A stretch of DNA of 55,830 bases, taken from assembly GCA_938074535.1 (NCBI GenBank), contig CALJER010000009.1, positions 1 through 55,830 of the forward strand. The letters are read 5' to 3'. The number at the start of each line of letters is the position of its first letter. The first letter of the stretch is position 1. The DNA comes from an uncultured archaeon (GTDB taxonomy: Archaea; Hadarchaeota; Hadarchaeia; Hadarchaeales; WYZ-LMO6). Below are positions 32,942 to 54,967 of the stretch, piece after piece. The notes beneath the pieces are model-generated. The model saw only the letters and a program-made list of their open reading frames with translations. It did not search any database and was not told where the DNA came from. A program made the translations under genes and the position numbers.

Positions 32942-34108
32942 TCAGAAGCGCCTGGGAACCTCTCTGGGCCATCCCCTGAAGAGGAGGAAGGAGAGGGGAG
33001 CCCCGCAGAGGAAGAGGAGGAAGGAGGCCCACATCACTGAAGGGGGGGAGAGGGAGTAGAGGTAGCCGCCCGCTGCGGTTCCCAGGGAGGAGCCGAGGTA
33101 GAAGGAGAGGTCCACGAAAGCCTCCGCCCTCCCCCTCAGGGCCTGAGGTGTGAGGAGGGCCACCGAGCCCCTTTCCACCCCGTAGGTGAGGGAGCCGCAC
33201 AGGTTGATGATGATAAGGGAGAGGAAAATCCCCGAAACGGAGCGGGTGAGGACGAGGAGGGGGGAGAGGCTCTCCAGCAAGAGCAGGTGGCTGTAGAGGA
33301 AGGAGAGAGGCGCCTGGCCGAGCCTCCGGCTGAGGGGGAGGGCCAGAGGGTAGGCAAGAGAGGAAAGGGCCAGGGCCAGTCCGAACTCCGCAAAGCTCAT
33401 CAGCTCCAAGTCTCTCACCGCGTACAGCACCAGGAAGAAGTTGAACATGGCGAGGGCGCTGATGAGGAGGAGGATCCTGAGCAGGATCAGGCCCTTAAGC
33501 AGCCTGTGGAGGGAGAGGAAGTCCCTCAGGGGGTTCCATACCGTTTTTCTCCTTACCTGCAGGGTTTCGGTGAGCGACCAGGACCTAACCACCGCCGCGG
33601 CCAGGATCACGGTACCACCGGCCAGGAAGGCCGTCCTGAGCCCGGGTAAGCCCCAAGTGTCCCTCATCATCCCCCCCAGCACGGGAGAAAGGGAGTAGGG
33701 CAGGTGCTCAGCCACCACGGCCAGCGTGAACATCCCCAGCAGGCCCTTCCTGGCGGAGTCCATGATCATGGCGTTGAAGGAGGGGAAGTAGAAGTAGGCG
33801 GCTCCCTCCAGCAGGGCGGCCACCACGAGGTCGAAGGTACCGCGGGCCAGGGAGTAGAGGAGGAGGGAAAGACCGAGGAGGGCGGTGCCCCACACGATGG
33901 GCCTCTTCCTTCCCAGCCTGTCCGCCGCCAGCCCCCCCGCCAAGAAGGAAAAGACGCAGACGAGGCTCCGCAGGGAGCTGATCATGCCAGCGGTCAGCGG
34001 ATTCCCGGTGAGGGAATAAGCGTACTCGGAGAAGTAGGGGTAGGCCAGGCCCACCGAGAAGCTGACGACGGCGGCGGAGAGGAGGAGAACCCTGACGTTG
34101 TTCCTCAT
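32942..34108 (-). CDS. MFS transporter, second of a pair
   Basis: A 388-residue polytopic protein with about 12 helices and an MFS loop-2-3 motif (LAGGLAADRLGRKRPIVWG). Its ATG overlaps the stop of the upstream MFS gene (ATGA), so they are translated together. The substrate is unknown. The pairing could mean a heteromeric unit or simple tandem duplication with divergence. Confidence 0.88.
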   Translation of the reverse strand: MRNNVRVLLLSAAVVSFSVGLAYPYFSEYAYSLTGNPLTAGMISSLRSLVCVFSFLAGGLAADRLGRKRPIVWGTALLGLSLLLYSLARGTFDLVVAALLEGAAYFYFPSFNAMIMDSARKGLLGMFTLAVVAEHLPYSLSPVLGGMMRDTWGLPGLRTAFLAGGTVILAAAVVRSWSLTETLQVRRKTVWNPLRDFLSLHRLLKGLILLRILLLISALAMFNFFLVLYAVRDLELMSFAEFGLALALSSLAYPLALPLSRRLGQAPLSFLYSHLLLLESLSPLLVLTRSVSGIFLSLIIINLCGSLTYGVERGSVALLTPQALRGRAEAFVDLSFYLGSSLGTAAGGYLYSLSPPSVMWASFLLFLCGAPLSFLLFRGWPREVPRRF

Positions 34109-35238
34109 CCTCTCACCAGGCGGAGGAGGAAGGGTAGGGAGAGGAGCTCGGCCGCGACGGAGAAGGCGGCGAGCAGGAGGGGGGAGGGGTAGAGCAGGCC
34201 CATCAGGGCATTGCCCGCGAAGCCCGAGAGCCCGTAGAGGGAGGAGAAGAGCCCGTAGGCGGTACCCCTCTTCGCGGAGGGAACCACCTCACCCACGGCG
34301 GCCCTCATCACCGTCTCCTGCGTGCCCATGGCCGCCCCCCAGAACACCACGCCTACGAGGCCCGCCGCCCTCCCCCCCAGCAGGAAGGCCAGGGGGGCGA
34401 CGGGGAGGGAGAGGAGGGGAACGAGGAGGAGAGAGGAGAGGCCCTTCCGGTCGTAGGTCCTTCCCGCCCAGAGGGCCAGGAGGGCGTCCGTGCCCATGGC
34501 AAGGGCGAAGAGGAGGGGGATTTCGGTGTCGGAGAAGGAGGAGGTGAGGCGGTAGGCCAGAAGGGGGAAGGTCAGGAAACCGCAGGTGGAGAGGACCACG
34601 AAGAGGAGGTAGAGCCTGAAGCTGCCAGGGATCCCTCCCCTTCCCCCCCTCTCCAGCCTCGAGGGATGGGGATAGAGCCTCCAGCTCAGGAGGAGGAAGA
34701 CCAGCAGGAGGAGGGCAGGGAAGAAGAGAGGGGTGAAGGCCCCCCTGTACCCCCTGAGGGAGAGCAGGAGGGCGAGGAAGAGGGGGCCGATCACCGCTCC
34801 CACCTGGTCCAGGGCCTCGTGGAGGGCGAAGCCCCATCCCCTCCCCACCCGGGAGGCCGCATGGGAGAGGATGGCGTCCCTAGGAGGAGTCCTCACGGCC
34901 TTTCCCGTCCTCTCCACCAGCAGGAGGAGGACGGCCAGCTCCCAGGAGCCTGCCAGACCTAGGAGGGGAAGAAGGAGGAGGGGGAGGTAGCCCGCCACCG
35001 TTAGTGGCCAGTATCCCCAGCGGTCCGAGAGGTAGCCGGAGAGGGGGCGGAGGCCGTACCCCAGGAACTCACCCAGGCCGGAGGCAGCCCCAACCACGGC
35101 GGCGCTCGCCCCCAGGGAGGCCAAGAAGGGACCGGCCACGCCCCTGACCCCCTCGTACACCACGTCCCCCAGCAGGCTCACCAGACCCAGCAGGAGGATG
35201 AGCCTCAGGGCCCTCTTCTTGGTTTCCGGCACCTTCAC
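34105..35238 (-). CDS. MFS transporter, first of a pair
   Basis: A 377-residue polytopic protein with about 12 helices and MFS features: GLRPLSGYLSDRWGYWPLTV (loop 2-3 motif), LVERTGKAVRTPPRDAIL, and a central loop WRLYPHPSRLERGG. The VRTPPRDAILSHA stretch is typical of a widespread efflux-like MFS subfamily. It is followed by the overlapping second MFS gene. GC falls sharply just upstream of its start. Confidence 0.88.
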   Translation of the reverse strand: MKVPETKKRALRLILLLGLVSLLGDVVYEGVRGVAGPFLASLGASAAVVGAASGLGEFLGYGLRPLSGYLSDRWGYWPLTVAGYLPLLLLPLLGLAGSWELAVLLLLVERTGKAVRTPPRDAILSHAASRVGRGWGFALHEALDQVGAVIGPLFLALLLSLRGYRGAFTPLFFPALLLLVFLLLSWRLYPHPSRLERGGRGGIPGSFRLYLLFVVLSTCGFLTFPLLAYRLTSSFSDTEIPLLFALAMGTDALLALWAGRTYDRKGLSSLLLVPLLSLPVAPLAFLLGGRAAGLVGVVFWGAAMGTQETVMRAAVGEVVPSAKRGTAYGLFSSLYGLSGFAGNALMGLLYPSPLLLAAFSVAAELLSLPFLLRLVRG

Positions 35239-35626
35239 CCTCTTTTTTGGGAATATAGGAGCTTTTTCTTTGAGGTTCGGTTTCAGTGCGGGATTTCCAA
35301 GTTGGTTGTAGAGGAGAAAGTGAGCTAGAATCCATTCCCCGGCTGCTCCTTCATCTGGAAAGGAAAAACAATGAGTTGTTTCATGCTGATATCCCTCAGT
35401 CCCCCGGGCGAAGTCATGTTCTTACCAAATGGAGGGGCGTTACAAAAGTGCAGCGCTTCTTCCCGCACAGAAATCAAGTTTTTGCGGCCAGAAACCCTGT
35501 ACTGGTAGCGATGTTTGGAAAAAGGAAAATTTCACCGGTATATCTCCAGCGCCCGCAATCGGATTCGAATAGCGAGGAGAACCGCATGCAGTTGGCGGTG
35601 TTACCAATTTCGAACAATTGAGTTCG
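35239..35626 (+). other. AT-richer gap with no supported gene
   Basis: 388 bases between the MFS start and the stop of the putative nuclease gene. GC is visibly lower than in the flanks. A 111-codon open frame on the plus strand (35286-35621) has no family resemblance and odd composition, so I do not call it. No RNA gene or repeat was recognised. It probably belongs to the same acquired island as the nuclease. Confidence 0.5.
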
Positions 35627-36298
35627 TCACTTGCTGGGCGCGGAAAGGTTATCTCTTGGTCCAATGACGCTGTAAGTATCTACCAGATGTAACAATTCCA
35701 GCACGAAATCTTTCCTCCGGTAATCTTTTGAACTCGGATCCTTCAAATATCTGATTAAATCGTTTAGAATGTGGGGTATTTCTATTACAAACACGCCTTT
35801 TTCTCTTAAGGTCTCGATGACCTCCCCTTTCCTTATTTTCCTACTCCCCATGGTGTGCTCTTCATGCAGGTGTGGACAGACGAGCACTCTTCCGAAATCC
35901 TCCGAGCCAAATATCTCTTTTCCCTTCTCGTAGACCTCCTCTTTTAAAAAAGTGTTTTTCAACTCCCGCCTCGGAATTGTTTTTGGAACAAATTTTTTCC
36001 CTTTCATCAATTCAATATCACTAGAAAGCCTTCCAAGAAGATCGTATGAAGCTCCGGGGTATTCAAACCATCCTTTACATTCAACCAGCAGATTCTTCGG
36101 TAGTTCGCCAGGTTCGAAGGGAATCGAAACTTTGTCCAATTTGGGGTGCGTACAAATCAAATCTATATCCATAGGGGTCGTTGCTTTGACGCTTTCCCTG
36201 CTAGGCCTAACTGGAATCGAAGTATCGGTGTGGTACCCCAGTTTTTTTGAAAACCAACATCGGGTGATTTCAACGACCGCATTTAAGGGTACCGGCAT
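35627..36298 (-). CDS. Putative PD-(D/E)XK nuclease in AT-rich island
   Basis: A 223-residue soluble protein starting MPVPLNAVVEITRCWFSKK. Residues 43-76 read like a PD-(D/E)XK core: DIDLICTH supplies the acidic residue, then after a spacer LLVECKGW supplies E-x-K. The preceding helix (FSKKLGYHT) fits the Glu-helix region of restriction-type nucleases. The C-terminal half is unassigned (VLVCPHLHEEHTMGSRK). Lower GC than its neighbours marks it as acquired. A TATA-like stretch at 36321-36328 gives it its own promoter. The same frame stays open upstream through the LUD gene, but that part is antiparallel noise from another frame. Function inferred only from the motif. Confidence 0.6.
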   Translation of the reverse strand: MPVPLNAVVEITRCWFSKKLGYHTDTSIPVRPSRESVKATTPMDIDLICTHPKLDKVSIPFEPGELPKNLLVECKGWFEYPGASYDLLGRLSSDIELMKGKKFVPKTIPRRELKNTFLKEEVYEKGKEIFGSEDFGRVLVCPHLHEEHTMGSRKIRKGEVIETLREKGVFVIEIPHILNDLIRYLKDPSSKDYRRKDFVLELLHLVDTYSVIGPRDNLSAPSK

Positions 36299-36320
36299 AC
36301 TGCTTTTACTTCGGGGGCAC

Positions 36321-36328
36321 TTTTTTAA
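36321..36328 (-). promoter_or_regulatory. TATA-like box of the putative nuclease gene
   Basis: TTAAAAAA on the minus strand lies 23-30 bases before the ATG at 36298. Confidence 0.5.
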
Positions 36329-36384
36329 GCCTTCGGGAATGTGGTTTTGCCCTTCAGGTTGCTCAAAACAGGTACCGCGAAAAG

Positions 36385-37641
36385 CTACGGTTGGGGCCTC
36401 CTCTCCCCGAACGGATTCCCCGTCTTCCGTATGTTCTCCGCCACCGAAATGTGGGGAGGTAGCACGAGCCCCCTCTCGCATGCCTCCGCCCTCAGCCTCT
36501 CGATGATGCTGGGAAAGTCTATGGAGCCGGGGCAGATCTCCCTGCAGGCCCCGCAGCCCGTGCAGGCGAAGAGTCCCGCCCTTACCGCCTCCTCCGGGCC
36601 CAGCACGAACCAGGTCCTCACCACCCCTACGGGCCCCGCCCCCACCCTGGAGGAGAAGGCCTGGGCCGCCTCCAGCAGGACGGGACAGACCGAGAGGCAG
36701 GCCCCGCAGTTGCAGCAGTAGAGCACCTCCTCCAGCCCCATCCTCACGGCCTCCCTCCTCCATCCGTCCAGCAGGACCACGTGCACCTCCTTCGCCCCGT
36801 GCATCCCGAACTGCTCTATCCCCATCACGTCCGCCGTCCTTGAGGGTCCCCTGATGAAGGAGTGGTAGGCCCCCGTCACCGTGAGGAAGGCCTCGCAGGT
36901 CTTCATCACCGTGGCCGCATCCTCCAGCGTAGGCACGATCTTCTCTATTCCCGCCACCGCCAGGTGCTTCTCAGGCAGTCTGGTGATGAGGCTGATGTTC
37001 CCCTCGTTCTCCACCAGCCCCACCGCCCCCTCCTCCGCCGCGATGGCGTTGGCCCCTGTGAGGCCGACCTTCGCCTCCAGGATCCTCTCCCTGAGCCTGA
37101 GCCTGGAGGCCTTGATGATCTCCTCCACGTCGGGCGGCAGTTCCCTCCCCACCTCCCTGGAGAGGGCCCTGGCCACTTCCTCCAGCGTGAGGTGAACGGC
37201 CGGGCCAACCGGGTGCAGCGGTTCTTCCCCGGCCAGCTGGATGATCCTGTCGCCCAGGTCGGTCTCCACCACCTCCACCCCCCTCTCCTCCAGCCTCTCC
37301 ACCAGGTCCAGCTCCTTCAGGGTGTTGGACTTCGACTTCACCACCACCCTCTCATCACCCATCTGCTTCAGCAGGTAGTCCACCGCTTCGCCCCCCCTTC
37401 GGGCTTCGAATACCTCGCACCCCACCGCCCTCAGTGAGTCCTTCGCCAGCCCCACCAGCTCCTCCAGCCTCCCCACCGCGCCCTCCTTGATCCTCCTGTA
37501 CCTCTCCATCATCTTCCTGAGCCTTCCACCGTCTGCCCTCAGCCTGGAGAGGACCACCGAGGCAATCACCTTCAGCGTTTCCGCCCTTCCCCCCTCCATC
37601 CCCCTCCTGAGCCTTTCCCCGGTCTCCTCGTACAGGCCCAT
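36385..37641 (-). CDS. LUD-domain/ferredoxin protein, LutB-like
   Basis: 418 residues: an N-terminal LUD domain (VVVKSKSNTLKELDLVERL, TGANAIAAEEGAVGLVENEG, FLTVTGAYHSFIRGPSRTAD) followed by two 4Fe-4S motifs, CCNCGACLSVCP and CTGCGACREICP. This is the LutB/YkgF-type architecture for lactate-type oxidation complexes. It ends NPFGERRPQP exactly where GC drops, so the original C terminus may have been lost to the adjacent island. The ATG is one base after the stop of the CCG gene; it is the last gene of the seven-gene redox operon. Confidence 0.88.
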   Translation of the reverse strand: MGLYEETGERLRRGMEGGRAETLKVIASVVLSRLRADGGRLRKMMERYRRIKEGAVGRLEELVGLAKDSLRAVGCEVFEARRGGEAVDYLLKQMGDERVVVKSKSNTLKELDLVERLEERGVEVVETDLGDRIIQLAGEEPLHPVGPAVHLTLEEVARALSREVGRELPPDVEEIIKASRLRLRERILEAKVGLTGANAIAAEEGAVGLVENEGNISLITRLPEKHLAVAGIEKIVPTLEDAATVMKTCEAFLTVTGAYHSFIRGPSRTADVMGIEQFGMHGAKEVHVVLLDGWRREAVRMGLEEVLYCCNCGACLSVCPVLLEAAQAFSSRVGAGPVGVVRTWFVLGPEEAVRAGLFACTGCGACREICPGSIDFPSIIERLRAEACERGLVLPPHISVAENIRKTGNPFGERRPQP

Positions 37642-37642
37642 C

Positions 37643-38338
37643 TCATCCCTCCATCAGCTCCCTCACCAGCATGGAGAGGTCCTTCACCTCCATCCTCCCC
37701 TCTGCGGCCTCCCTCAGGTGGTGGTAGCAGAAGGGGCAGGAAGTGACCAGGAGCTGGGCACCTGCTTCCAGAGCGTCCCCCACCCTGCTGCGCGACACTG
37801 CCGAAGAGAGCTCCCGGAAGGCCGACCTCACCCCTCCCCCCGCCCCGCAGCATCGGGAGAACTCGCGGGAGAGGGACATCTCCAAGAGCTCCAGCCCGGG
37901 CACGCTTTTCAGGATCTCCCTGGGCTCCTCATAAAGCCCCCATTCCCTCCCCAGGTGGCAGGAGTCGTGGTAGGTGGCTTTCACCTCCCTTCTCCCCAGC
38001 CTCAGTCTCCCCTCCACAAGCAGGCCGCGGAGGAGCTGGGTGAGGTGCAGCACCTCCACCCCTGGCAGGGAGTACTCCCTGCGGAAGGTCGAGTAGCAGC
38101 CTGGGCAGGCCGTCAGGAGCCTCCTCACCCCCAGCCTGGAGAACTCCTCCTCGTTCCTCCTCCTCACCTCCTCCGCCTCCTCCACCTGCCCCGTCCTGAA
38201 GAGCACGGAGCCGCAGCAGGTCTCTCGATCGAAGAGGCGGAAGGGCAGGCTCACCTTCCTGAGGATCTCCACCGTGGCCTCCGCTATTCCCCTCTCCCTG
38301 AAGGTGCTCATGCACCCCCTGAAGAACCAGAGCTCCAC
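37643..38338 (-). CDS. Two-CCG-domain Fe-S protein (LutA/HdrB-like)
   Basis: 231 residues with two CCG domains: FRGCMSTFRE, ETCCGSVLFRTGQ, LTACPGC in the first, and HDSCHLGREWGLYEEP, RCCGAGGGV, VTSCPFC in the second. Such domains hold the non-cubane or cubane clusters of HdrB, GlpC and LutA. It is a full-length stand-alone version of the C-terminal half of the next upstream gene, so the two look like paralogues. The GTG start directly abuts the upstream stop. Confidence 0.9.
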   Translation of the reverse strand: MELWFFRGCMSTFRERGIAEATVEILRKVSLPFRLFDRETCCGSVLFRTGQVEEAEEVRRRNEEEFSRLGVRRLLTACPGCYSTFRREYSLPGVEVLHLTQLLRGLLVEGRLRLGRREVKATYHDSCHLGREWGLYEEPREILKSVPGLELLEMSLSREFSRCCGAGGGVRSAFRELSSAVSRSRVGDALEAGAQLLVTSCPFCYHHLREAAEGRMEVKDLSMLVRELMEG

Positions 38339-39478
38339 CTATCCCCACCTCTCCAGCAGGAACTCGACCAGGTCCACCACCCTGAGCCCTAGTCCGAAGG
38401 CCTCGGCCGTTTCCCTAAGCTGCCTCAGGCAGAAGGGGCAGGCGGTTACCAGCACCTGGGCCCCCGTCTCCCTTGCCTCCTCCAGCCTCCTTTTGGCCAC
38501 CTGCTTGGAAGCGTCGGGATAGCCGGCTCTGAAGCCCCCTCCAGACCCGCAGCACCAGGAGTTCTCCCTGTTTCTGGGCATCTCCACGAGTTCCACCCCA
38601 GGGAGGGAGGAGAGCAGTCTCCTGGGCTCCTCGTACACCCCCATGTGCCTCCCCAGGTGGCATGGATCGTGGTAGGTCACCCTCACCTCTCCCCCCCTCT
38701 CCGCCCTCAGTCTCCCCCTCTCCCTGTCTAGGAGCTGCACGAGATGCAGGACCCCCACTTCTGGCTCCACTCCGAGCTCAGGGTAGTCGCTCTTCCAAGC
38801 CCTGTAGCAGCCCGGGCAGTTCACCACCACCTCCCTCGCCCCCCTCCTTCCCACCTCCTCCAGATTGTGCCTGGCCATTCCCTCCACCGTCGCACCGTCC
38901 GCTTCCCCCTGTCCCGTCCTGAGAAGGAAAGAACCGCAGCACCACTCGTCCCCAAGTAGGGTGAACTCCAGCCCCATCCTCCCCAGCAGCTCCACCACCT
39001 TTCCCGCCAGCTCCTTCTCCCTGTAGGAGGAGGTACAGCCCGCGAAGTAGACCAGGGGGGCCTTCCCGGGGAGGTGCAGCCCGGGAGGGAGCCAGGAGAG
39101 CCTGCTGGCGTGGGGCTCCAGGTAGGGGTTGTGCTCCCTGGCTACGTGGCCGCCCCTCTCCCCGTACTTGGGGGGGAGGAAACCCCTCTCCCTCAGCCTT
39201 TCCCTGGCGGCCTCGATCACCCTCGAAGGTCCCGCCCCCACCGGGCAGACCGCGTCGCAGTTCCCGCAGAGGACGCAGGAGAACATCCTCTCCGCCACCG
39301 TGTTGGATGGGGGAAGATCGCCCCGGAGCAGGTGGGCGCACAGGGCCATCCTCCCCCTGGGCGCCCTGGACTCCACCCCCCAGAGTTCCAGGGAGGGGCA
39401 CTGGGTGCGGCAGAGGCCGCAGGCGGTGCTGGAGCTCATGCAGGCGTTGATTTTGGTGCGGAGCTCCTCCAGCCTCAT
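38339..39478 (-). CDS. GlcF/HdrD-like Fe-S oxidoreductase
   Basis: 379 residues. N-terminal ferredoxin motifs CGLCRTQCP and CVLCGNCDAVCPVG, then two CCG domains (YFAGCTSSYREKE, WCCGSFLLRTGQ, VNCPGC; HDPCHLGRHMGVYEEP, WCCGSGGGF, VTACPFC). This is the architecture of GlcF and HdrD, which take electrons from a flavin dehydrogenase. Its ATG overlaps the stop of the GlcD-type gene, its likely partner. Confidence 0.92.
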   Translation of the reverse strand: MRLEELRTKINACMSSSTACGLCRTQCPSLELWGVESRAPRGRMALCAHLLRGDLPPSNTVAERMFSCVLCGNCDAVCPVGAGPSRVIEAARERLRERGFLPPKYGERGGHVAREHNPYLEPHASRLSWLPPGLHLPGKAPLVYFAGCTSSYREKELAGKVVELLGRMGLEFTLLGDEWCCGSFLLRTGQGEADGATVEGMARHNLEEVGRRGAREVVVNCPGCYRAWKSDYPELGVEPEVGVLHLVQLLDRERGRLRAERGGEVRVTYHDPCHLGRHMGVYEEPRRLLSSLPGVELVEMPRNRENSWCCGSGGGFRAGYPDASKQVAKRRLEEARETGAQVLVTACPFCLRQLRETAEAFGLGLRVVDLVEFLLERWG

Positions 39479-40950
39479 TTCTCCTCCCACCACCTCTCCA
39501 TCAGGGCCACCCTGGGGATGCCATCCAGGGCCATCTTCCCTGGGTTCAGGATCCCCTGCGGATCCAGCAGCCTCTTCAGGGAGCGCATGAGTTCCAGCGC
39601 GTACCCGTGCTCCTCCTCCAGGTAGGGGGCCTTCCACAGCCCCACCCCGTGCTCCGCGGTGAGCGTCCCTCCCAGGGATAAGGCAAGCCTTATGGCCTCC
39701 TCCTGGAACCTCCTGGCCCTCTCCACCTGCTCTGGAGACTCCGGTACGAAAGTGGAGCCTATGTGAACATTACCGTCACCCACGTGACCAAAACATACCC
39801 CCATGATACCCCTTTCCTCCATGAGAGCCTTTACCCTCCTCACATACTCCAGCATCTTGGAAAGGGGCAGCCCCACATCCACGGAGGCCTGGAAGACCAG
39901 CCTCGGGGTTTCCGGGCTGGGAAGGAGCTTGGTGAGGGAGGCGCTGATTTTCTCCCTGGCTTCCCACAGCCTCCTCCCCAGGGCCTCGTCCTCCACCCCC
40001 ACCGTTTCCGCTCCCTTCCCTCTGCACGCCCTCACCATCTCCTCCATCTCCCCCTCCACCGCTTCCCGGTACCTCCCGTCGGAGCGCAGCAGGAGCGCCC
40101 CCTTTCCCTCCGGGAGGGAAAAGCCGCTCATGTTCAGGGCGAGGAGGCAGAGCTCGTCCAGCAGCTCCAGGGAGGCCGGGGTGATGCCCCTGCCCAGGAT
40201 CTCCATGGCGGCCTCGAAGGCGCCCTCCAAGGAAGGGAAGACGGCCATGGTGGTTCTGCGGATGGGCGGGTAGGGCTCCACCCTCAGGGTGATCTCCGTG
40301 ATCACGCCCAGCGTCCCCTCCGACCCCACGAAGAGGTCCTTCAGGGAGTAGCCCGAGGCGGACTTCGCGACCTTCCTCCCCAGCCTCACCACTTCTCCCC
40401 CCGCCAGCACCACCTCCAGGGAGAGCACGTAGTTCCTGGTGGCCCCGTACTTCACGGCCCCCGAGCCGCTGGCGTTGGTGGAGACCATCCCCCCTACGGT
40501 GCAGGCCATGGCGCTTCCCGGTTCCGGGGGGAAAAAGTACCCCCTCCGCTCCAGCTCCCGGTTCAGCTCCGCGTAGGTGGCCCCAGGTCCCGCCACCACC
40601 ATGCGGTCCTCCACCCTCGGTTCTATCCTGTTCATCTTCTTCAGGTCCAGCACGATTCCCCCCTCCACAGGGATGAGCTGTCCCGCCAGGCTGGTCCCTG
40701 CCCCCCTGGGGATGACGGGTATGCGGTGGAGGGAGGCGAACCTGAGGATCCGGGAGACCTGTGAGGTTTCGAGGGGAGTGACCACGGCGTCGGGGAGGAA
40801 CTTGAACTTGGGAAGGTAGTGCTGGAGGCCCCTCAGGAAGTGGTCGGCGGAGTAGGGGAGGAGGTCCGCCTCCTCCGTGAGCACATTCTCCCTTCCCACC
40901 ATCCCCGCCAGTTCCCTTTCCAGTTCCCTCCTTTCTGGCCGGGAGCTCAT
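39475..40950 (-). CDS. GlcD-type FAD-linked 2-hydroxyacid dehydrogenase
   Basis: 491 residues of the FAD-binding-4/FAD-oxidase-C family: FAD-binding IPVIPRGAGTSLAGQLIP, GSAMACTVGGMVSTNASGSG, SLKDLFVGSEGTLGVITEI, and the active-site segment CFGHVGDGNVHIG plus AEHGVGLWKAPYL. Relatives oxidise D-lactate, glycolate or other D-2-hydroxy acids to the 2-oxo acid. The ATG overlaps the iorB stop, placing it between IorAB and the Fe-S genes. The substrate is inferred, not seen. Confidence 0.92.
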   Translation of the reverse strand: MSSRPERRELERELAGMVGRENVLTEEADLLPYSADHFLRGLQHYLPKFKFLPDAVVTPLETSQVSRILRFASLHRIPVIPRGAGTSLAGQLIPVEGGIVLDLKKMNRIEPRVEDRMVVAGPGATYAELNRELERRGYFFPPEPGSAMACTVGGMVSTNASGSGAVKYGATRNYVLSLEVVLAGGEVVRLGRKVAKSASGYSLKDLFVGSEGTLGVITEITLRVEPYPPIRRTTMAVFPSLEGAFEAAMEILGRGITPASLELLDELCLLALNMSGFSLPEGKGALLLRSDGRYREAVEGEMEEMVRACRGKGAETVGVEDEALGRRLWEAREKISASLTKLLPSPETPRLVFQASVDVGLPLSKMLEYVRRVKALMEERGIMGVCFGHVGDGNVHIGSTFVPESPEQVERARRFQEEAIRLALSLGGTLTAEHGVGLWKAPYLEEEHGYALELMRSLKRLLDPQGILNPGKMALDGIPRVALMERWWEEK

Positions 40951-41543
40951 CTCCTCCCCCCGGCCATCCCCAGCTCCAGCGCCCTCAGGTTGGGACTGTT
41001 CTCCCCGAAGAGCTCCACCACGACCTTTCTGAAGCTCTCGGGACGGAGGGGGAGCCAGCCAGAGGCCGCCAGACATCCCACCATCACCACGTTCTGCATT
41101 CTGGCGTCCCCGGCCTCCTTGGCCAGCTCGGTGGCCTCCACCACCACCACCTCCTTCGAGAGCTCCCTTATGGCCTCCAGGACCTTTTCCACCTCGGGAT
41201 ATTTTGTTTGCCCGGAGAGGACCTCCAGGGGATAGACCGGTCTGGGGTTCACCATCACCCTTATGCCTGGGTTGCCGTAGGTCCCGAGGGCCCTGAGGGT
41301 CTCCACGGGCTCGAAACCCAGCAGCACGTCCCCCCTCCCCTCGGGCATGAGGGGACTGTAGGCCCTCCTCCTGGAGAGCCTGAGGTGGCTCATCACCGAA
41401 CCTCCCCTCTGCGTGGCGCCGTAGGTCTCGCCCACGGATACCTGGAAGCCTTCCTCGGTGGCAGCCGAGCCTATGAGCAGGGAAGCCAGCAGGTTCCCTT
41501 GTCCCCCCACGCCCACCACCAGCACGTTCAGGGGATCCTTCAT
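40947..41543 (-). CDS. iorB: Indolepyruvate:ferredoxin oxidoreductase beta subunit
   Basis: A 198-residue pyruvate-ferredoxin-oxidoreductase gamma-type domain: VLVVGVGGQGNLLASLLI, VSVGETYGATQRGGSVMSHL, YSPLMPEGRGDVLLGFEPVE, as in IorB. It pairs with IorA to convert aryl-pyruvates to aryl-acetyl-CoA with reduction of ferredoxin. Its ATG overlaps the iorA stop. Confidence 0.93.
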   Translation of the reverse strand: MKDPLNVLVVGVGGQGNLLASLLIGSAATEEGFQVSVGETYGATQRGGSVMSHLRLSRRRAYSPLMPEGRGDVLLGFEPVETLRALGTYGNPGIRVMVNPRPVYPLEVLSGQTKYPEVEKVLEAIRELSKEVVVVEATELAKEAGDARMQNVVMVGCLAASGWLPLRPESFRKVVVELFGENSPNLRALELGMAGGRR

Positions 41544-43462
41544 CCTCCCTCCTCCACCACAATGGCCCCTGCCGGGCAGAGCTTGGCGCAGAGCCCGCAG
41601 CCCGTGCAGAGGACCTCGTCTATCTTGGCCTTGTTCTTGGGGTAGTCCCAGATGTTGGCGGGGCACCCCAGCACCCTGGAGCAGAAGGCCATGCAGCCGC
41701 ACTCCTCCCCTATGCACTTTTCCTGGTTCACGTGCACCCTGGGCCTCCTCTTCCTCTTCTCGCCCTCGGTGAGCGGGCAGGGGTGCCTGAGCACCAGGAC
41801 CCTGGGCCCCTTCCCCTTCAGCATCTCCTGGAGGGTCCTGGTGGCCTCGTCCACCTCGAAAGGATCGCAGACCCTCACCTCCACCCCTATCCCCCTGCAG
41901 AGGTCCTCCACCCTTATGGGGGCGGAGGGTTCGCCCGAGGCCGTCACCCCCGAGCCGGGATGCGGCTGGTGACCCGTCATTCCCGTGGTGGAGTTGTCCA
42001 GCACCACGTGCAGGAGGTTGGAGGAGTTCCACTTCGCGTTGAGGAGAGCGGGGATGCAGGCGTGATAGAAGGTGGAGTCCCCGGAGACGGAGACGACAGG
42101 GCGATCGAACCCGAACCTCTCCAGCTTCCCGAAGCCACAGGCCGTCCCTATCCCTGCTCCCATGCAGTGGAGGGTCTGCTCCACCGAGAAGCCCGTGGGG
42201 AGGAGGCCCATGCTGTAGCACCCTATATCCCCCGTTACCACGGCTTCCCTTCCGTCCCACTTCAGGGCCCTCTTCATTACCCAGAAGGAGGCGCGGTGGG
42301 GGCAGCCGGGACAGAAGGCCATGGAGCGCCCGGGCACGTACCCGCTCACCAGCTCCTCCCCCCTGCTCGCGTACTCTGGCGGCCTGGGGGAGTAGCTCAC
42401 CCCTCTCAGCCCGGAAAGGGCCCTGAGGACCAGCTCCGTGTTCAGCTCCCCCACGGCGGGGATATGGCCGCTCTTCTTCCCGTAGAAGTTGAGGGGTCCC
42501 AATCCTCTGGAGGCGAACTCCGCGGCCAGCGCCTTCACGTTCTGTTCCAAGAAGGGGTCTATCTCCTCCACGAAAAGGACCCCCCCGGCGTGGCTTAGGT
42601 GTTTAAAGAGCAGCTCTTCTGGCAGGGGCCAGGTGGTACCCAGCTTCAGGATTCCCACCGAGTCCTGGAGGCCCAGGAGCTCCACCGCCTCAGCGGAGTA
42701 AGTGTAGGAGGGCCCGGAGGTGAGGAGGAGGAGGTCGGGGTTCTCCGGTCCCTCGTACCGGTTGAAGGGGGAGGTCTCGAACTTCTCCGCGGCCGTCCTC
42801 ATCTTCTGATGCAGCATATCGTGGAACATGCAGGTGAAGGTGGAGCTTCCAGACGTCCAGGGGGGAGGAGCGGCGAACTCGGGCTTTCTCCTTTCCCTGT
42901 GGAGGGGGCCCAGCTCCACCACCCCCCTAGAGTGGGAGAGTCGGGTCACGCTCCTGACCATGCAGAGGAGGCCCAGCTCCTCCGAGAGCTCAAAAGCCCA
43001 CTTGGTCATCTCCTTGGCCTCCTGCGGGGTAGAGGGCTCCAGGAGGGGGACGTCCGCGAGCCTGGCGTAGTTTCTGGTGTCCAGCTCCGTGGTGGTGGAG
43101 TGGGCCGCTGGGTCGTCACCTGTGACCAGCACGAGGCCTCCCCTCGTCCCCGACAGGTTCACGGTCATCAGGAAGTCGGAGCACACGTCCACTCCCAGGT
43201 TCTTCATGGCGGTGAGGGCGCGAAGGCCCGTGGCAGCCGCGGCTCCAGCCACCTCCAGGGCCACCATCTCGTTGGTGGACCACTCCACGTAAAGGTCGAA
43301 CTCCTTCGAGGCCTCCAGCAGGGCCTCCACCACCTCGGAGGCCGGGTTCCCCGGGTAGCCCGAGCACACCTGCACCCCGGCCTCCAGGGCCCCCCTGGCT
43401 ATGCCCTCGTTGCCGCTCAGCAGCAGCCTCTTCCCGGGTCTGTCCAGTCCTATCCTGCTCAT
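41540..43462 (-). CDS. iorA: Indolepyruvate:ferredoxin oxidoreductase alpha subunit
   Basis: A 640-residue IorA: N-terminal domain (EAGVQVCSGYPGNPASEVVE), thiamine-diphosphate domain (FCPGCPHRASFWVMKRAL, SGDSTFYHACIPALLNAKWN, TTGMTGHQPHPGSG), and a C-terminal two-cluster ferredoxin domain (CIGEECGCMAFC, CTGCGLCAKLCPAG). It decarboxylates indolepyruvate or phenylpyruvate and forms the CoA ester. The ATG is one base after the stop of the FrhB-like gene. Confidence 0.95.
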   Translation of the reverse strand: MSRIGLDRPGKRLLLSGNEGIARGALEAGVQVCSGYPGNPASEVVEALLEASKEFDLYVEWSTNEMVALEVAGAAAATGLRALTAMKNLGVDVCSDFLMTVNLSGTRGGLVLVTGDDPAAHSTTTELDTRNYARLADVPLLEPSTPQEAKEMTKWAFELSEELGLLCMVRSVTRLSHSRGVVELGPLHRERRKPEFAAPPPWTSGSSTFTCMFHDMLHQKMRTAAEKFETSPFNRYEGPENPDLLLLTSGPSYTYSAEAVELLGLQDSVGILKLGTTWPLPEELLFKHLSHAGGVLFVEEIDPFLEQNVKALAAEFASRGLGPLNFYGKKSGHIPAVGELNTELVLRALSGLRGVSYSPRPPEYASRGEELVSGYVPGRSMAFCPGCPHRASFWVMKRALKWDGREAVVTGDIGCYSMGLLPTGFSVEQTLHCMGAGIGTACGFGKLERFGFDRPVVSVSGDSTFYHACIPALLNAKWNSSNLLHVVLDNSTTGMTGHQPHPGSGVTASGEPSAPIRVEDLCRGIGVEVRVCDPFEVDEATRTLQEMLKGKGPRVLVLRHPCPLTEGEKRKRRPRVHVNQEKCIGEECGCMAFCSRVLGCPANIWDYPKNKAKIDEVLCTGCGLCAKLCPAGAIVVEEGG

Positions 43463-43463
43463 C

Positions 43464-44516
43464 CTACACCTCCTTCAGGTAGCGGGCCCCCAGTCTCTCC
43501 CTCTCCTCCTCGCTCCTCTTCTTCTTCATGAGGCTGGCTTCCCTGAGGTGCTCCAGCCTCTCCCTCTCCAGGGGCGCCGTCTCCACCTCCCCCCTCCTGC
43601 TCGCCTCCTCGAAGAGCTCCCTCCCCCTCTCGCTCCTGAGGATCACGGTGTTCCATCCCTCCTCCCCCTCCACCATCCCCACCGAGAGGTCGGCCAGCTC
43701 CGCCGTCATGTCGAAGCAGACCCTGCAGGAGGGCGGGATGAAGCTCCTCACCTCGTCCAGGGGGAGCTCCACCCTCCCGTCCTCCGTCTCGGCCACGAAA
43801 AGGTTGGCGGGCGGTGGAGGGATGTCGAACCTCCTCACCCTCCTCCCCCCCAGCTTCGTCCTGAGGAACTCCCCGGCCCTGTGGGAGAGGGCCCAGGTGC
43901 AGAAAAGCCCCACCACCAGCTCCACCCTCGACACCTCCCACTCCTCCTCGTAGGCCTGGATCTTCCTGAGGGCCAGCACCTGGCAGGGCGTGCCCACGAA
44001 GGCCATTCTTCCCCCCTCTTCCTTCCTCAGCAGCCTCACCACCTCCCCCACCGAGGGGGAAAGCAGGTACCTGGATCTGGCGCACCGGAGCACCTCCTCC
44101 TCAGTTCTAGCTGCCGTGGGCTCGGGGTAGACCCCATCGGAGGATCCCGTGAGGACCACGGAGTCCACCTTCCCCTCCCTCAGGGCGTGCAGGAGGAGGG
44201 AGGAGACGGTCCCCCCGTACTGCGCCCTTCCCCTCACCTCTTCCCTCGCCGCCCTGGCTTTGAGCACGGAGGAGTGGAACCCCAGCACCGGATCCGTCCT
44301 GAGGGCCCCGAAGGTCCTCCTCTCCAGGTGGGGGAGGTTCACCTCCGTCCTGGGGCAGAAGAGGTAGCACCTGCCCTCCTCCCTGCCGCACGGTTCCAGG
44401 AGAACGGCCCTTCCCTCCACCGCGTTGAGGTAGGGACAGATGGAAGTGCAGGCCCCGCAGCCCGTGCAGAGGCTGGAGGAGAGAACCTTGGACTGGAGTT
44501 CCAGGGGCCCGCCCAT
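43464..44516 (-). CDS. F420-type FrhB-like Fe-S oxidoreductase
   Basis: 350 residues. N-terminal cluster motif LCTGCGACTSICPYLNA and further cysteines (EPCGREEGRCYLFCP), then the FrhB domain: QYGGTVSSLLLHALREGKVD, AFVGTPCQVLALRKIQ, VGLFCTWALS, and a C-terminal VCFDMTAELADLSVGM. The family hands electrons between Fe-S or ferredoxin and a flavin/F420 site. It is the first gene of the operon, with a TATA-like ATTTAA 24-29 bases upstream. A link to coenzyme F420 is by family; the actual partner is unknown. Confidence 0.88.
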   Translation of the reverse strand: MGGPLELQSKVLSSSLCTGCGACTSICPYLNAVEGRAVLLEPCGREEGRCYLFCPRTEVNLPHLERRTFGALRTDPVLGFHSSVLKARAAREEVRGRAQYGGTVSSLLLHALREGKVDSVVLTGSSDGVYPEPTAARTEEEVLRCARSRYLLSPSVGEVVRLLRKEEGGRMAFVGTPCQVLALRKIQAYEEEWEVSRVELVVGLFCTWALSHRAGEFLRTKLGGRRVRRFDIPPPPANLFVAETEDGRVELPLDEVRSFIPPSCRVCFDMTAELADLSVGMVEGEEGWNTVILRSERGRELFEEASRRGEVETAPLERERLEHLREASLMKKKRSEEERERLGARYLKEV

Positions 44517-44539: not shown

Positions 44540-44545
44540 ATTTAA
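44540..44545 (-). promoter_or_regulatory. Probable TATA box of the redox operon
   Basis: TTAAAT on the minus strand lies 24-29 bases before the ATG at 44516. It is the only good promoter candidate for the seven-gene block. Confidence 0.5.
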
Positions 44546-44894: not shown

Positions 44895-45950
44895 CTAACC
44901 TGAGGGAATGTGTTCGGGGGGCCTGACCAGTCTGAACTTCATCGCCCCGTCCTCGCACCCCACCACGCACACACCGCACCCGAAGCACTTCTCGGGTATC
45001 ACCCTGGCTTTGTACTTCCTGCTCCCCTCCGGCCTCACCAGCTCCACGGCCTCAAAGGGGCATCTCTCCAGACAGGTCTGGCATCCGGTGCACTTCTCCT
45101 GGTCCACATAGGCCTCGAACCTGCTCTTGGCGGTGAGCTTCTCTGGAGGGACCCCTCCGTACCTGTAGAAGTTGAAGAACTCGCAGCAGTCCGGACAGCA
45201 GTTACAGATGGTGTTGATGGTGAGCTTGGAGTGGTTGGGCCCCATGTGTACCAGTCCGTCCCTTTCAGCCTTCTCAAGCACCTCCAGGGCCTCTTTCTTC
45301 GTCAGGGACCTCCCAGAGCCCCTCTTCACCACATACTCCGCCCCCCTGTGGAACTGGGTGCAGTGCCAGACCTCCCTCTCCCTGGTGTGCTTGCAGGGCT
45401 CCCCCACCCCCTCCTGCACCAGCCTGCAGGAGCAGGGCACCACCCCCAGCTGGGTCTGGGAGTTAACAATTTGCACGATGTCCTCGCACGGGAGAACCCC
45501 TTCCAGGCCCTTCAGGGCACCGCTGGCGGGGATGACCCTCCAGATGGGCTCCGTGAAGAGGGTTCCCAGGAGCTCCCCCACTCCCTTGTAGAACTCCTTT
45601 CTTCCGAAGTCGTGCCAGAGCTGGAAGTACTTCTTGTCCTTCTCCAGATCGAGGTGCTGGGTGGCGAGGGTAGCGTCGTGGAGCTGCACCAGATCCCTGG
45701 CGAACCTGAAGAAGTCCCTCTTGTCGAAGTCTTTGGGGAAGACCACCCCCTTCCTCCACAGCTCCTCCAGGATCCCCCTCACCTTCTCCTCAGGCATGCC
45801 GAGGTTGTTCGCCACTTCCTGAACGCTCCCCGGGAGGGCAGCGGCCACCCTAGCCTGTTCAGAAGTCATCAGGTACTCTAGGATTTGCCTGAGGAAGGGA
45901 GACTCGGGAAAACCAAGGCCCTCCATCAAAAGGCGAAAGGGATCCTCCAT
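44895..45950 (-). CDS. Helix-turn-helix/ferredoxin protein with extra cysteine motifs
   Basis: 351 residues. The N-terminal quarter resembles a winged helix (SVQEVANNLGMPEEKVRGILEELWRKGVVFP). The middle has unusual cysteine groups: VVPCSCRLVQEGVGEPC, WHCTQF and TICNCCPDCCEF. The C terminus has two 4Fe-4S motifs, CTGCQTCLERCP and CFGCGVCVVGCEDG. It could be a redox-sensing regulator or an electron carrier. Its location immediately upstream of the redox operon on the same strand fits either role. A TATA element lies at 45973-45978. Confidence 0.8.
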   Translation of the reverse strand: MEDPFRLLMEGLGFPESPFLRQILEYLMTSEQARVAAALPGSVQEVANNLGMPEEKVRGILEELWRKGVVFPKDFDKRDFFRFARDLVQLHDATLATQHLDLEKDKKYFQLWHDFGRKEFYKGVGELLGTLFTEPIWRVIPASGALKGLEGVLPCEDIVQIVNSQTQLGVVPCSCRLVQEGVGEPCKHTREREVWHCTQFHRGAEYVVKRGSGRSLTKKEALEVLEKAERDGLVHMGPNHSKLTINTICNCCPDCCEFFNFYRYGGVPPEKLTAKSRFEAYVDQEKCTGCQTCLERCPFEAVELVRPEGSRKYKARVIPEKCFGCGVCVVGCEDGAMKFRLVRPPEHIPSG

Positions 45951-53104: not shown

Positions 53105-54967
53105 GTGGAGGAGTGGAGGAGGAAGTACCCTGAGAAGTTCCTCCCGGAGGAGGAAATCTTCAGAAGGATTCGCCGGGGGAGCAGGATCTTCGTGGGCACG
53201 GGGTGTGGGGAGCCCCAGCACCTCCTCACCTCCTTCGTGAAGTGGGTGGAAGCCCACCCCAAGGCCCTCTTGGGGACGGAAATCTTTCAGGTTTGGTCTC
53301 TGGGGGTCTCGGCCTACACCGAACCTAAGTTCAGGGACAATTTCAGGGCCAATTCCTTCTTCGTGGGGCCCAGCACCAGAAGGGCCGTGAACGAGGGTGA
53401 GGCTGACTACACCCCCATCTTCCTCTCGAAAGTACCGGGACTTCTCAGGGAGGGCTTCATCCCAATCGACGTGGCTTTAGTGCAAACCTCCCCACCAGAT
53501 CCGCATGGATACCTCAGCTTGGGCATAAGCGTGGATATCACCAAGGTGGCCGTGGAGAGTGCTGATCTGGTGGTGGCGCAGGTCAACCGGCACATGCCAA
53601 GAACCCACGGTGACGGCTTTTTGCACCTGGAGGAGGTGGACTTTGTGGTCCCCTGGGACGAGCCCCTTTTGGAGTATGAGGAGAGGCTCCCCGATGAGGT
53701 CTCTCAGAGGATAGGTAAGCATGTTTCCAGCCTTGTGGAGGATGGGGACACCCTTCAGGTGGGGTATGGGAGCATCCCCAACGCCGTCCTTTCCAACCTT
53801 GGAGACAGGAGACACTTGGGGATACACTCGGAGCTCTTCACGGATGGGATGGTGGAACTGATGAAGAGCGGTACGATCGACAACTCCAAGAAGAGGGTCG
53901 ACCGGGGAAAGGCCGTGGCCAGTTTTTGCATGGGCAAAAAGGCCACCTACGACTTCTTGAACGACAACCCGGCGGTGGAGTTCAGGACGGTTGACTATAC
54001 CAACGATCCCTTAATCATAGCCAGGCAGCACCACATGGTGGCCATAAACAGCGCCTTGGAGATAGACCTGACGGGGCAGGCCACGGCCGAATCCATAGGC
54101 GGTTTCTTCTACAGCGGGCTGGGCGGACAGGCTGACTTCATGAGGGGTGCGGCCCTGGCCAGACACGGGAAAGCCGTTCTGGTCCTCCAGTCCACGGCTG
54201 AGGGGGGAAGGGTCTCACGTATAGTTCCCCGTCTGAAGGAAGGGGCAGGAGTGACTCTCAACAGGGGGGATGTGCAGTACGTGGTCACGGAGCACGGTGT
54301 GGCCTACCTGCACGGGAAGAGCGTGAGGGAGAGGGCCATGGAGCTCATCCGCCTGGCCCACCCTGACTTCAGGCCCTGGCTCATCGAGGAGGCTAAAAAA
54401 CTGGGCCTCGTTTTCAAGGACCAGGTTTATGTCCGGGGGGAGTATCCGGAGGAGCTAGAGACCATCAAGAGGACGAAAACGGGTCTGGAGATTTTCCTGC
54501 GGCCCGTGAAGCTCAGCGACGAGCCCCTCCTGAAAGAGTTCTTCTATTCCCTCTCCGACGAGAGCCTGTATCGCAGGTTCATGTCCCCCAGAAAGGACAT
54601 GCCTCACGAGCAACTGCAGAAGTTCGTGGTCGTCGACTACATCAGGCAGATGGTCCTCTTGGCCGTCCTGAGGAGGGAGGAGAGGGAGAAGGTGGTAGGG
54701 ATGGCCCAGTATGTGCTGGACGAGGCAACCAACTTCGCGGAGGTGGCTTTTGCCGTGAGGGACCAGTACCAGAACCAGGGGGTGGGGAGGGAACTGCTGA
54801 GACAGCTTACCTACATTGCGAGGAGGCGCGGTATCTTCGGCTTCACGGCCCAAGTGCTGGCCACCAACCGACCCATGTTGCGCCTTTTCGACAGCATGAA
54901 CTTTTCCACCCAGAAGAGGGTGTCCGAAGGGGTGGTGGAGCTCAGGATGAGGTTCAGAAGATCATAA
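53105..54967 (+). CDS. Acetyl-CoA hydrolase/4-hydroxybutyrate CoA-transferase fused to GNAT acetyltransferase
   Basis: 620 residues. Residues 1 to about 440 are a CoA-transferase family I-type enzyme (GTGCGEPQHLLTSFV, PPDPHGYLSLGISVD, VGYGSIPNAVLSNLG, LGIHSELFTDGMVELM, VTEHGVAYLHGKSVRERA). Residues about 455-615 are a GNAT domain (FLRPVKLSDEPLLKEFFYSL, acetyl-CoA loop QYQNQGVGRELLRQL). It exchanges CoA between acids or hydrolyses acyl-CoA; the GNAT part may acetylate a protein lysine. The start is GTG 53105, with a TATA box upstream. Context shows only a tRNA before and mevalonate kinase convergent after. Confidence 0.9.
   Translation: MEEWRRKYPEKFLPEEEIFRRIRRGSRIFVGTGCGEPQHLLTSFVKWVEAHPKALLGTEIFQVWSLGVSAYTEPKFRDNFRANSFFVGPSTRRAVNEGEADYTPIFLSKVPGLLREGFIPIDVALVQTSPPDPHGYLSLGISVDITKVAVESADLVVAQVNRHMPRTHGDGFLHLEEVDFVVPWDEPLLEYEERLPDEVSQRIGKHVSSLVEDGDTLQVGYGSIPNAVLSNLGDRRHLGIHSELFTDGMVELMKSGTIDNSKKRVDRGKAVASFCMGKKATYDFLNDNPAVEFRTVDYTNDPLIIARQHHMVAINSALEIDLTGQATAESIGGFFYSGLGGQADFMRGAALARHGKAVLVLQSTAEGGRVSRIVPRLKEGAGVTLNRGDVQYVVTEHGVAYLHGKSVRERAMELIRLAHPDFRPWLIEEAKKLGLVFKDQVYVRGEYPEELETIKRTKTGLEIFLRPVKLSDEPLLKEFFYSLSDESLYRRFMSPRKDMPHEQLQKFVVVDYIRQMVLLAVLRREEREKVVGMAQYVLDEATNFAEVAFAVRDQYQNQGVGRELLRQLTYIARRRGIFGFTAQVLATNRPMLRLFDSMNFSTQKRVSEGVVELRMRFRRS

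Follow-up and report, generated by a model that had tools for sequence, protein, structure and literature searches.

Organization of the seven-gene unit

The stretch of DNA analysed here (the window) comprises 55,830 nucleotides (nt) of contig CALJER010000009.1 from an uncultured, small-genome archaeon of the Hadarchaeales (assembly GCA_938074535.1), and our subject is a set of genes on its minus strand that joins a 2-oxoacid oxidoreductase of the IorAB type to hydroxy-acid oxidation proteins and to an FrhB-type subunit, as a preliminary description made from the sequence alone had proposed. Seven minus-strand open reading frames (ORFs) were confirmed at 44516-36385, all with the named domains well over the Pfam cut-offs. 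In the direction of transcription these encode an FrhB-like F420 reductase subunit with an N-terminal ferredoxin domain (P0001, 350 aa, 43464..44516; Pfam FrhB_FdhB_N/C and a PDB match), an IorA-like 2-oxoacid oxidoreductase alpha subunit with an altered substrate motif (P0002, 640 aa, 41540..43462; TPP_enzyme_C PF02775, POR_N PF01855 and Fer4), the gamma-type subunit IorB (P0003, 198 aa, 40947..41543; POR PF01558, 113 bits), and a GlcD-type FAD D-2-hydroxyacid dehydrogenase (P0004, 491 aa, 39475..40950; FAD_binding_4 and FAD-oxidase_C). The remaining three are a GlcF/HdrD-like protein with Fer4_8 and two complete CCG domains (P0005, 379 aa, 38339..39478; Pfam and PDB matches), a LutA-like protein with a GTG start and two complete CCG domains (P0006, 231 aa, 37643..38338; Pfam), and a LutB-like protein with LUD and dicluster ferredoxin domains (P0007, 418 aa, 36385..37641; LUD_dom, 144 bits, and Fer4_8).

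The genes overlap or abut as previously stated, with spacings of +1 nt for FrhB/IorA, -4 for IorA/IorB, IorB/GlcD and GlcD/GlcF, 0 for GlcF/CCG and +1 for CCG/LUD. The window's own genome (G000, 94% complete) was compared with those of two congeners (G001 and G002) and of one member of the same family but a different genus (G003). The tight junctions, together with a gene order kept within the genus, support the reading of the set as one transcription unit.

The single plausible promoter previously placed at 44540 also found support. A putative TATA-like element (TTAAAT within GGTTAAAT, 44540..44545, minus strand) precedes the first start codon by ~28 nt, at a position shared by all three congeners; GGTTAAAT in G000, GGTTAAAT in G001 and GGTTATAAAT in G002 sit ~25-32 nt 5' of the conserved FrhB ATG, with a clear TATAAA at the TATA-like position in G002. 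A box of this kind at the same place before a conserved ATG in three congeners supports a start there. The intergenic gaps within the set are too small to easily hold a further promoter, though one may lie inside coding sequence. As expected for archaea, a sigma-70 scan of the minus strand upstream of FrhB gave no match.

Predicted functions of the encoded proteins

The best PDB match of P0001 was 8RIU_B, the zeta subunit of an F420-reducing CO dehydrogenase (CODH), at 223 bits over residues 2-335, a span that takes in the N-terminal ferredoxin domain as well as the core cysteines; matches to FwdI (8RJA_E, 144 bits) and FrhB (3zfs_C, 132 bits) were weaker, and the other FrhB of the window genome matched FrhB and zeta about equally. 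P0001 has the FrhB_N and FrhB_C domains with the core [4Fe-4S] cysteines that mark the F420-reducing FrhB/FpoF/zeta proteins, and its seven N-terminal and four core cysteines (C178, C206, C264, C267) were invariant among 6 aligned homologues and are shared with its paralogues. Orthologues of P0001 were found only in the three genomes that carry the operon. In 10 members of the order, the one FrhB that relatives keep is encoded 1-5 kb away from cofD; in the window's genus it lies near Fwd and F420-dependent Mtd genes. That the host makes and uses F420 is indicated by its CofD, FwdA/FwdB and Mtd genes: CofD is split over contigs C12 and C8 in the window's genome, with a longer match in G001, FwdA and FwdB are both present in the former, and in G001 an F420-dependent Mtd stands beside the FrhB paralogue at the same locus.

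The zeta subunit of CODH anchors through its N-terminal ferredoxin domain and passes electrons to F420 (PMC11493965). P0001 resembles the zeta subunit of "Ca. Ethanoperedens" (8RIU; FwdI in 8RJA), the predicted host enzyme here being a member of the 2-oxoacid oxidoreductase (OFOR) superfamily rather than CODH or Fwd. Pairs of FrhB and OFOR genes occur elsewhere in archaea. In 14 of 20 genomes of the order of G028, the gene for a domain-swapped FrhB (Pfam FrhB_C at 1-154, Fer4, FrhB_N at 294-367) immediately precedes porC and porA (L184 5438-8553, L187-L214), and at nine of the loci fetched an FrhB paralogue adjoins an F420-dependent Mtd. For ANME-1, Chadwick et al. described FrhB6-PFOR and FrhB7-CODH clusters and proposed that pyruvate oxidation reduces F420 (PMC9012536); the likeness is an FrhB paralogue clustered with an OFOR, which there is PFOR and not IorAB, and GlcD and LUD genes were not reported there. 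Given the CODH-zeta precedent and these gene pairs, the FrhB-type subunit probably wires the operon's OFOR to F420. What had been put forward only as "possibly F420" is thus strengthened by the 8RIU match, by the presence in the genus of CofD and of an F420-dependent Mtd, and by the FrhB-OFOR pairs of another order.

The IorAB pair has the features of the OFOR superfamily (thiamine pyrophosphate (TPP) Glu, Mg/TPP motif with its Asn, POR gamma domain and ferredoxin-domain cysteines); IorA keeps the TPP Glu65, the conserved Arg130, G461-D462-S463, N490 and the cluster cysteines, and its AlphaFold model (pLDDT 82) matched OFORs in a fold search, with modest TM-scores. Membership in the indolepyruvate oxidoreductase (IOR) family was judged by the curated equivalog cut-offs of TIGR03336 and TIGR03334. 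IorA scored 600.2 bits in the window and 611.4 in G001 against a TIGR03336 cut-off of 650.9, and IorB scored 164 bits against 205.8, all below the threshold, whereas the IorA proteins of the order and phylum relatives tested reached 653-802 bits. A low score is not telling by itself, because the IorA of G079, which groups with that of the window, also falls under the cut-off (584 bits) and has no Asn39, a residue absent from all 44 other archaeal IorA.

In place of the YPGTP and S-x-N-E-Q-type motifs of IOR, the three congeners have YPGNP and TTTEL. Codon 39 (43346..43348, minus strand) encodes Asn at the substrate-binding Thr position of YPxTP, where all 44 other archaeal IorA have Thr, and codons 123-127 (43082..43096, minus strand) encode TTTEL, where the others mostly have S-x-N-E-Q, with S123, N125 and Q127 kept in 43 of the 44. 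In all, the window, G001 and G002 share T39N, K66M, N92D, S123T, N125T and Q127L relative to 43-44 of those 44 sequences. A further candidate, C591M, was dropped after a five-residue insertion was found to displace the cluster cysteine there. The conserved sites of IorB are nearly unchanged, which places the shift in IorA. The Thr of YPxTP binds the substrate carboxylate, and oxalate oxidoreductase (MtOOR) has Arg there (YPIRP) (PMC5020499). On the strength of the Thr-to-Asn replacement and the changes at residues 123-127, the substrate of this IorA probably differs from the canonical arylpyruvate, and we infer from the strong purifying selection on the gene (dN/dS 0.04) that the changes reflect a changed substrate and not decay. 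The "aryl" substrate of the preliminary description accordingly finds no support, given the motif changes and the score of 600 vs 650.9 bits. Vertical descent from the IorA of the order was considered and found no support; in the tree the genus joins, by long branches, three IorA that belong to a distant family, a grouping that may be false according to the tree tool's own warning. The sole other POR-gamma subunit of the window genome is part of a separate POR-like locus.

For the hydroxy-acid half, the nearest solved structures to GlcD were mitochondrial LDHD (8jdc) and LctD (7qh2), with glycolate oxidase also close. The protein retains LWEAR at 328, GHVGDGNVH at 388 and AEHG at 432, which we take to be the carboxylate Arg and the His/Glu metal site as in LDHD, and it thus has the FAD domain, carboxylate Arg, His-x6-His and EH of the D-2-hydroxyacid dehydrogenases (GlcD/LDHD/LctD). 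GlcF matched 9ojn_A and HdrB chains in the PDB, and every CCG domain of P0005 and P0006 has the full C-CC-CxxC pattern. P0007 and P0006 correspond to LdhH split in two, the former to its N-terminal part (274 bits) and the latter to its C-terminal part. Relative to the LutABC/LldEFG systems (LutA, LutB and LutC), only LutA- and LutB-like proteins are encoded. Two NiFe-hydrogenase large-subunit genes are present in the window genome.

Two other loci of this genome carry related genes. Contig C49 (L155) carries another GlcF-GlcD pair, 44% and 28% identical to that of the operon, together with two acyl-CoA synthetase alpha-like genes, perhaps a further hydroxy-acid route conserving energy. On contig C26 (L156, 9294-12821), there is a third, divergent GlcF and GlcD-type pair with ABC-ATPase-like genes near.

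Conservation, distribution and extent of the operon

All seven genes were found in identical order in G001 (L063), with 77-93% aa identity, and in G002 pieces on contig ends (L064, L065, L127) fit the same order. The dN/dS values between the window and G001 ranged from 0.04 to 0.14 across all seven genes, indicating that they are maintained under purifying selection. Beyond the genus the picture was different. Archaeal genomes were searched with IorA, GlcF and FrhB probes (394 genomes each) and with a LUD probe (101 genomes), all counts being among the matches listed. A P0007-like LUD protein occurred in 15 of the 101 genomes and a P0002-like IorA in 44, with both together only in the window's genus; G003 had neither. 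The whole seven-gene set was not found outside the genus among the matches listed from up to 394 archaeal genomes, and a contig scan with the CCG protein as probe recovered bacterial and archaeal LUD/CCG neighbours and no IorAB. The preliminary description had proposed to look for the same gene order in related archaea; it is intact in G001, G002 is consistent with it, and among the matches listed it was not found beyond the genus. Outside the genus IorAB and the GlcD-LUD genes do lie apart, a situation that the preliminary description had named as one that would refute its reading and that leaves function within the genus unrefuted. Within the genomes sampled, the union of IorAB with the GlcD/LUD genes is, by comparison of gene content, a recent, genus-level innovation.

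Two near misses were set aside. A GlcD-GlcF fusion gene lies 3-10 kb from IorAB in three genomes of one family (L168, L169, L170), on the opposite strand and not in one operon, which among the matches listed for the GlcF probe in 394 genomes came nearest to the union outside the genus, and in G293 a GlcF gene lies 6 kb from IorAB, again not in one operon. In relatives from the same order, IorAB stood beside an ADP-forming acyl-CoA synthetase alpha-like gene at 2 of the 3 loci inspected; at L076 and L080, acyl-CoA synthetase alpha-like and amidohydrolase-like genes precede IorAB on the same strand.

The limits of 36385-44516 first given for the operon take in the seven genes and are slightly too narrow at the 3' end, where two major facilitator superfamily (MFS) transporter genes follow LUD in G001 and G002. 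In the window, the first (34105..35238, minus strand; MFS_1) is a probable operon member, its counterparts lying closely 3' of LUD (~25 nt in G002, ~120 nt in G001), and the second (32942..34108, minus strand; MFS_1) overlaps it by 4 nt, in the same order as in G001 and G002. Here ~1.1 kb of additional DNA (35239-36384), absent at this place from G001 and G002, separates the MFS genes from LUD; a long ORF in it (35627-36763) enters the LUD gene in a different frame and had no Pfam match. The two MFS genes probably belong to the operon as well, and the ancestral unit would then have comprised nine genes, the seven plus two MFS.

A conserved 351-aa dicluster ferredoxin protein is encoded just upstream of the operon (44895-45950), 37 nt from FrhB in G002. 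Elsewhere in the window, a single ORF (53105-54967) encodes both acetyl-CoA hydrolase/transferase domains and a GNAT acetyltransferase domain.

A proposed luo-like pathway and its alternatives

The closest precedent is the luo operon of Desulfovibrio vulgaris (DVU3025-3033), a nine-gene transcript of Por with GlcD/GlcF and LUD/CCG lactate dehydrogenases (PMC4481167). Both operons join genes for a 2-oxoacid oxidoreductase, a GlcD/GlcF-type dehydrogenase (for D-lactate in luo) and LUD/CCG proteins (for L-lactate in luo) in one unit; luo also has a permease. Here an IorAB-type enzyme takes the place of Por, an F420 reductase is added, MFS proteins replace the lactate permease and the host is an archaeon. 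Neither LutC, nor Pta/Ack or an ADP-forming synthetase, nor a lactate permease is among the seven genes and two MFS genes, and the OFOR is not of Por type. The operon therefore works like luo and yet is not a luo member in the strict sense. In Archaeoglobus fulgidus, AF0806-0811 form a lactate cluster of lctP, lldD, dld and lldEFG (PMC3949148), which likewise co-locates GlcD-type and LUD/CCG genes in an archaeon; OFOR and FrhB were not reported in it. Desulfococcus multivorans grows on phenyllactate, makes IorA3B3 on phenylpyruvate and has cluster genes assigned to phenyllactate oxidation (PMC5109826), a cluster which, compared by its description, is alike in pairing IorAB with hydroxy-acid oxidation genes and for which no F420 subunit is mentioned. 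The earlier statement that this exact set was undescribed holds within the range of the searches made here, but luo, Archaeoglobus, D. multivorans and ANME-1 had already shown the plan itself; what is new is the probable F420 wiring of an OFOR within a luo-like set and the changed IorA motif.

Judging from these sequence comparisons, we give about an even chance to the interpretation that this is a luo-like catabolic operon taking a hydroxy acid through an oxo acid to an acyl-CoA, with the OFOR wired to F420. A 2-hydroxy acid would be taken up, possibly via the MFS proteins, for which product export is an alternative role, and FAD-dependent oxidation by GlcD would turn it into the 2-oxo acid. 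Proteins of the GlcF and LutA/LutB families relay electrons, and here an acceptor encoded outside the operon would receive them via [4Fe-4S] and CCG-type clusters. The IorAB-type enzyme would then decarboxylate a 2-oxo acid in a TPP- and CoA-dependent reaction that yields acyl-CoA and CO2, and its YPxNP motif suggests that the usual arylpyruvate is not the substrate. The FrhB-like subunit may bind IorAB through its N-terminal ferredoxin domain, with F420 and not free ferredoxin as electron acceptor, and ATP could be gained from the acyl-CoA by ADP-forming acyl-CoA synthetases encoded elsewhere, the two alpha-like genes of contig C49 counting in favour of this interpretation. Oxidation of 2-oxoacids proceeds at ~-500 mV and of 2-hydroxyacids at ~-190 mV, with F420 at ~-340 mV, near their mean. 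Standard potentials thus forbid downhill flow from the hydroxy acid to F420, and the two electron streams would be either separate or confurcated; that all seven proteins form one electron-confurcating complex in which both streams reduce F420, without Etf or quinone, seems to us very improbable.

Several observations weigh against a luo-like pathway. The operon has no acyl-CoA synthetase, unlike the IorAB clusters of order relatives, and neither LutC nor a second LUD protein was found in the 94%-complete window genome, P0007 being the only one. The union is limited to one genus among the genomes searched, which leaves the set as a whole with little comparative support, and synteny within one genus alone is weak evidence. 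Finally, YPxTP-motif mutations abolish or strongly reduce activity in the Sulfolobus OFOR (PMC5020499), and IorA might therefore catalyse another reaction.

The separation of the two halves outside the genus, where members of the order have IorAB by itself or beside an acyl-CoA synthetase and other archaea have LUD plus CCG without IorAB, would also fit two modules that share a transcript and no pathway, namely an F420-linked FrhB-IorAB for amino-acid fermentation and an independent GlcD-GlcF-LutAB lactate or glycolate dehydrogenase, whose pyruvate from lactate the separate POR of the genome could take. We consider this unlikely, if worth serious attention: with its 4-nt overlap the IorB-GlcD junction is no looser than the others in the set, and the same functions are paired in luo and in the D. 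multivorans cluster.

A route from aryl-lactate through arylpyruvate to arylacetyl-CoA, as in the phenyllactate/IorA3B3 cluster of D. multivorans (PMC5109826), would agree with the IorAB family name and the 600-bit match, and with that organism's growth on phenyllactate alongside a clustered IorAB. It is improbable in view of the change from YPGTP to YPGNP and those at residues 123-127, which depart from 43-44 of 44 other IorA, and of an IOR cut-off that the order and phylum relatives tested pass and this protein does not. The same altered motif could instead mean that IorAB oxidises another short acid (e.g. glyoxylate from glycolate) and forms no acyl-CoA, like oxalate oxidoreductase (OOR), since MtOOR has Arg for the very same Thr and does not need CoA (PMC5020499), OOR (5c4i) was among the top OFOR matches in the fold search, and the best model for GlcD was glycolate oxidase, though under its cut-off. 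But Asn differs from Arg, no residue selecting glyoxylate or oxalate was identified, and several other OFORs fit the IorA model equally well; we rate this slightly below the aryl route.

If the luo-like interpretation with F420 wiring is true, the 2-oxoacid oxidoreductases, usually described as ferredoxin enzymes, gain a branch that reduces F420, and the operon provides a compact seven-gene set in which the idea of an F420-linked OFOR is testable. A natural OFOR with Thr-to-Asn in YPxTP is a second departure at the position that distinguishes oxalate oxidoreductase. As the FrhB-OFOR pairs in the order of G028 and in ANME-1 suggest, archaea may have resorted repeatedly to wiring an OFOR to F420.

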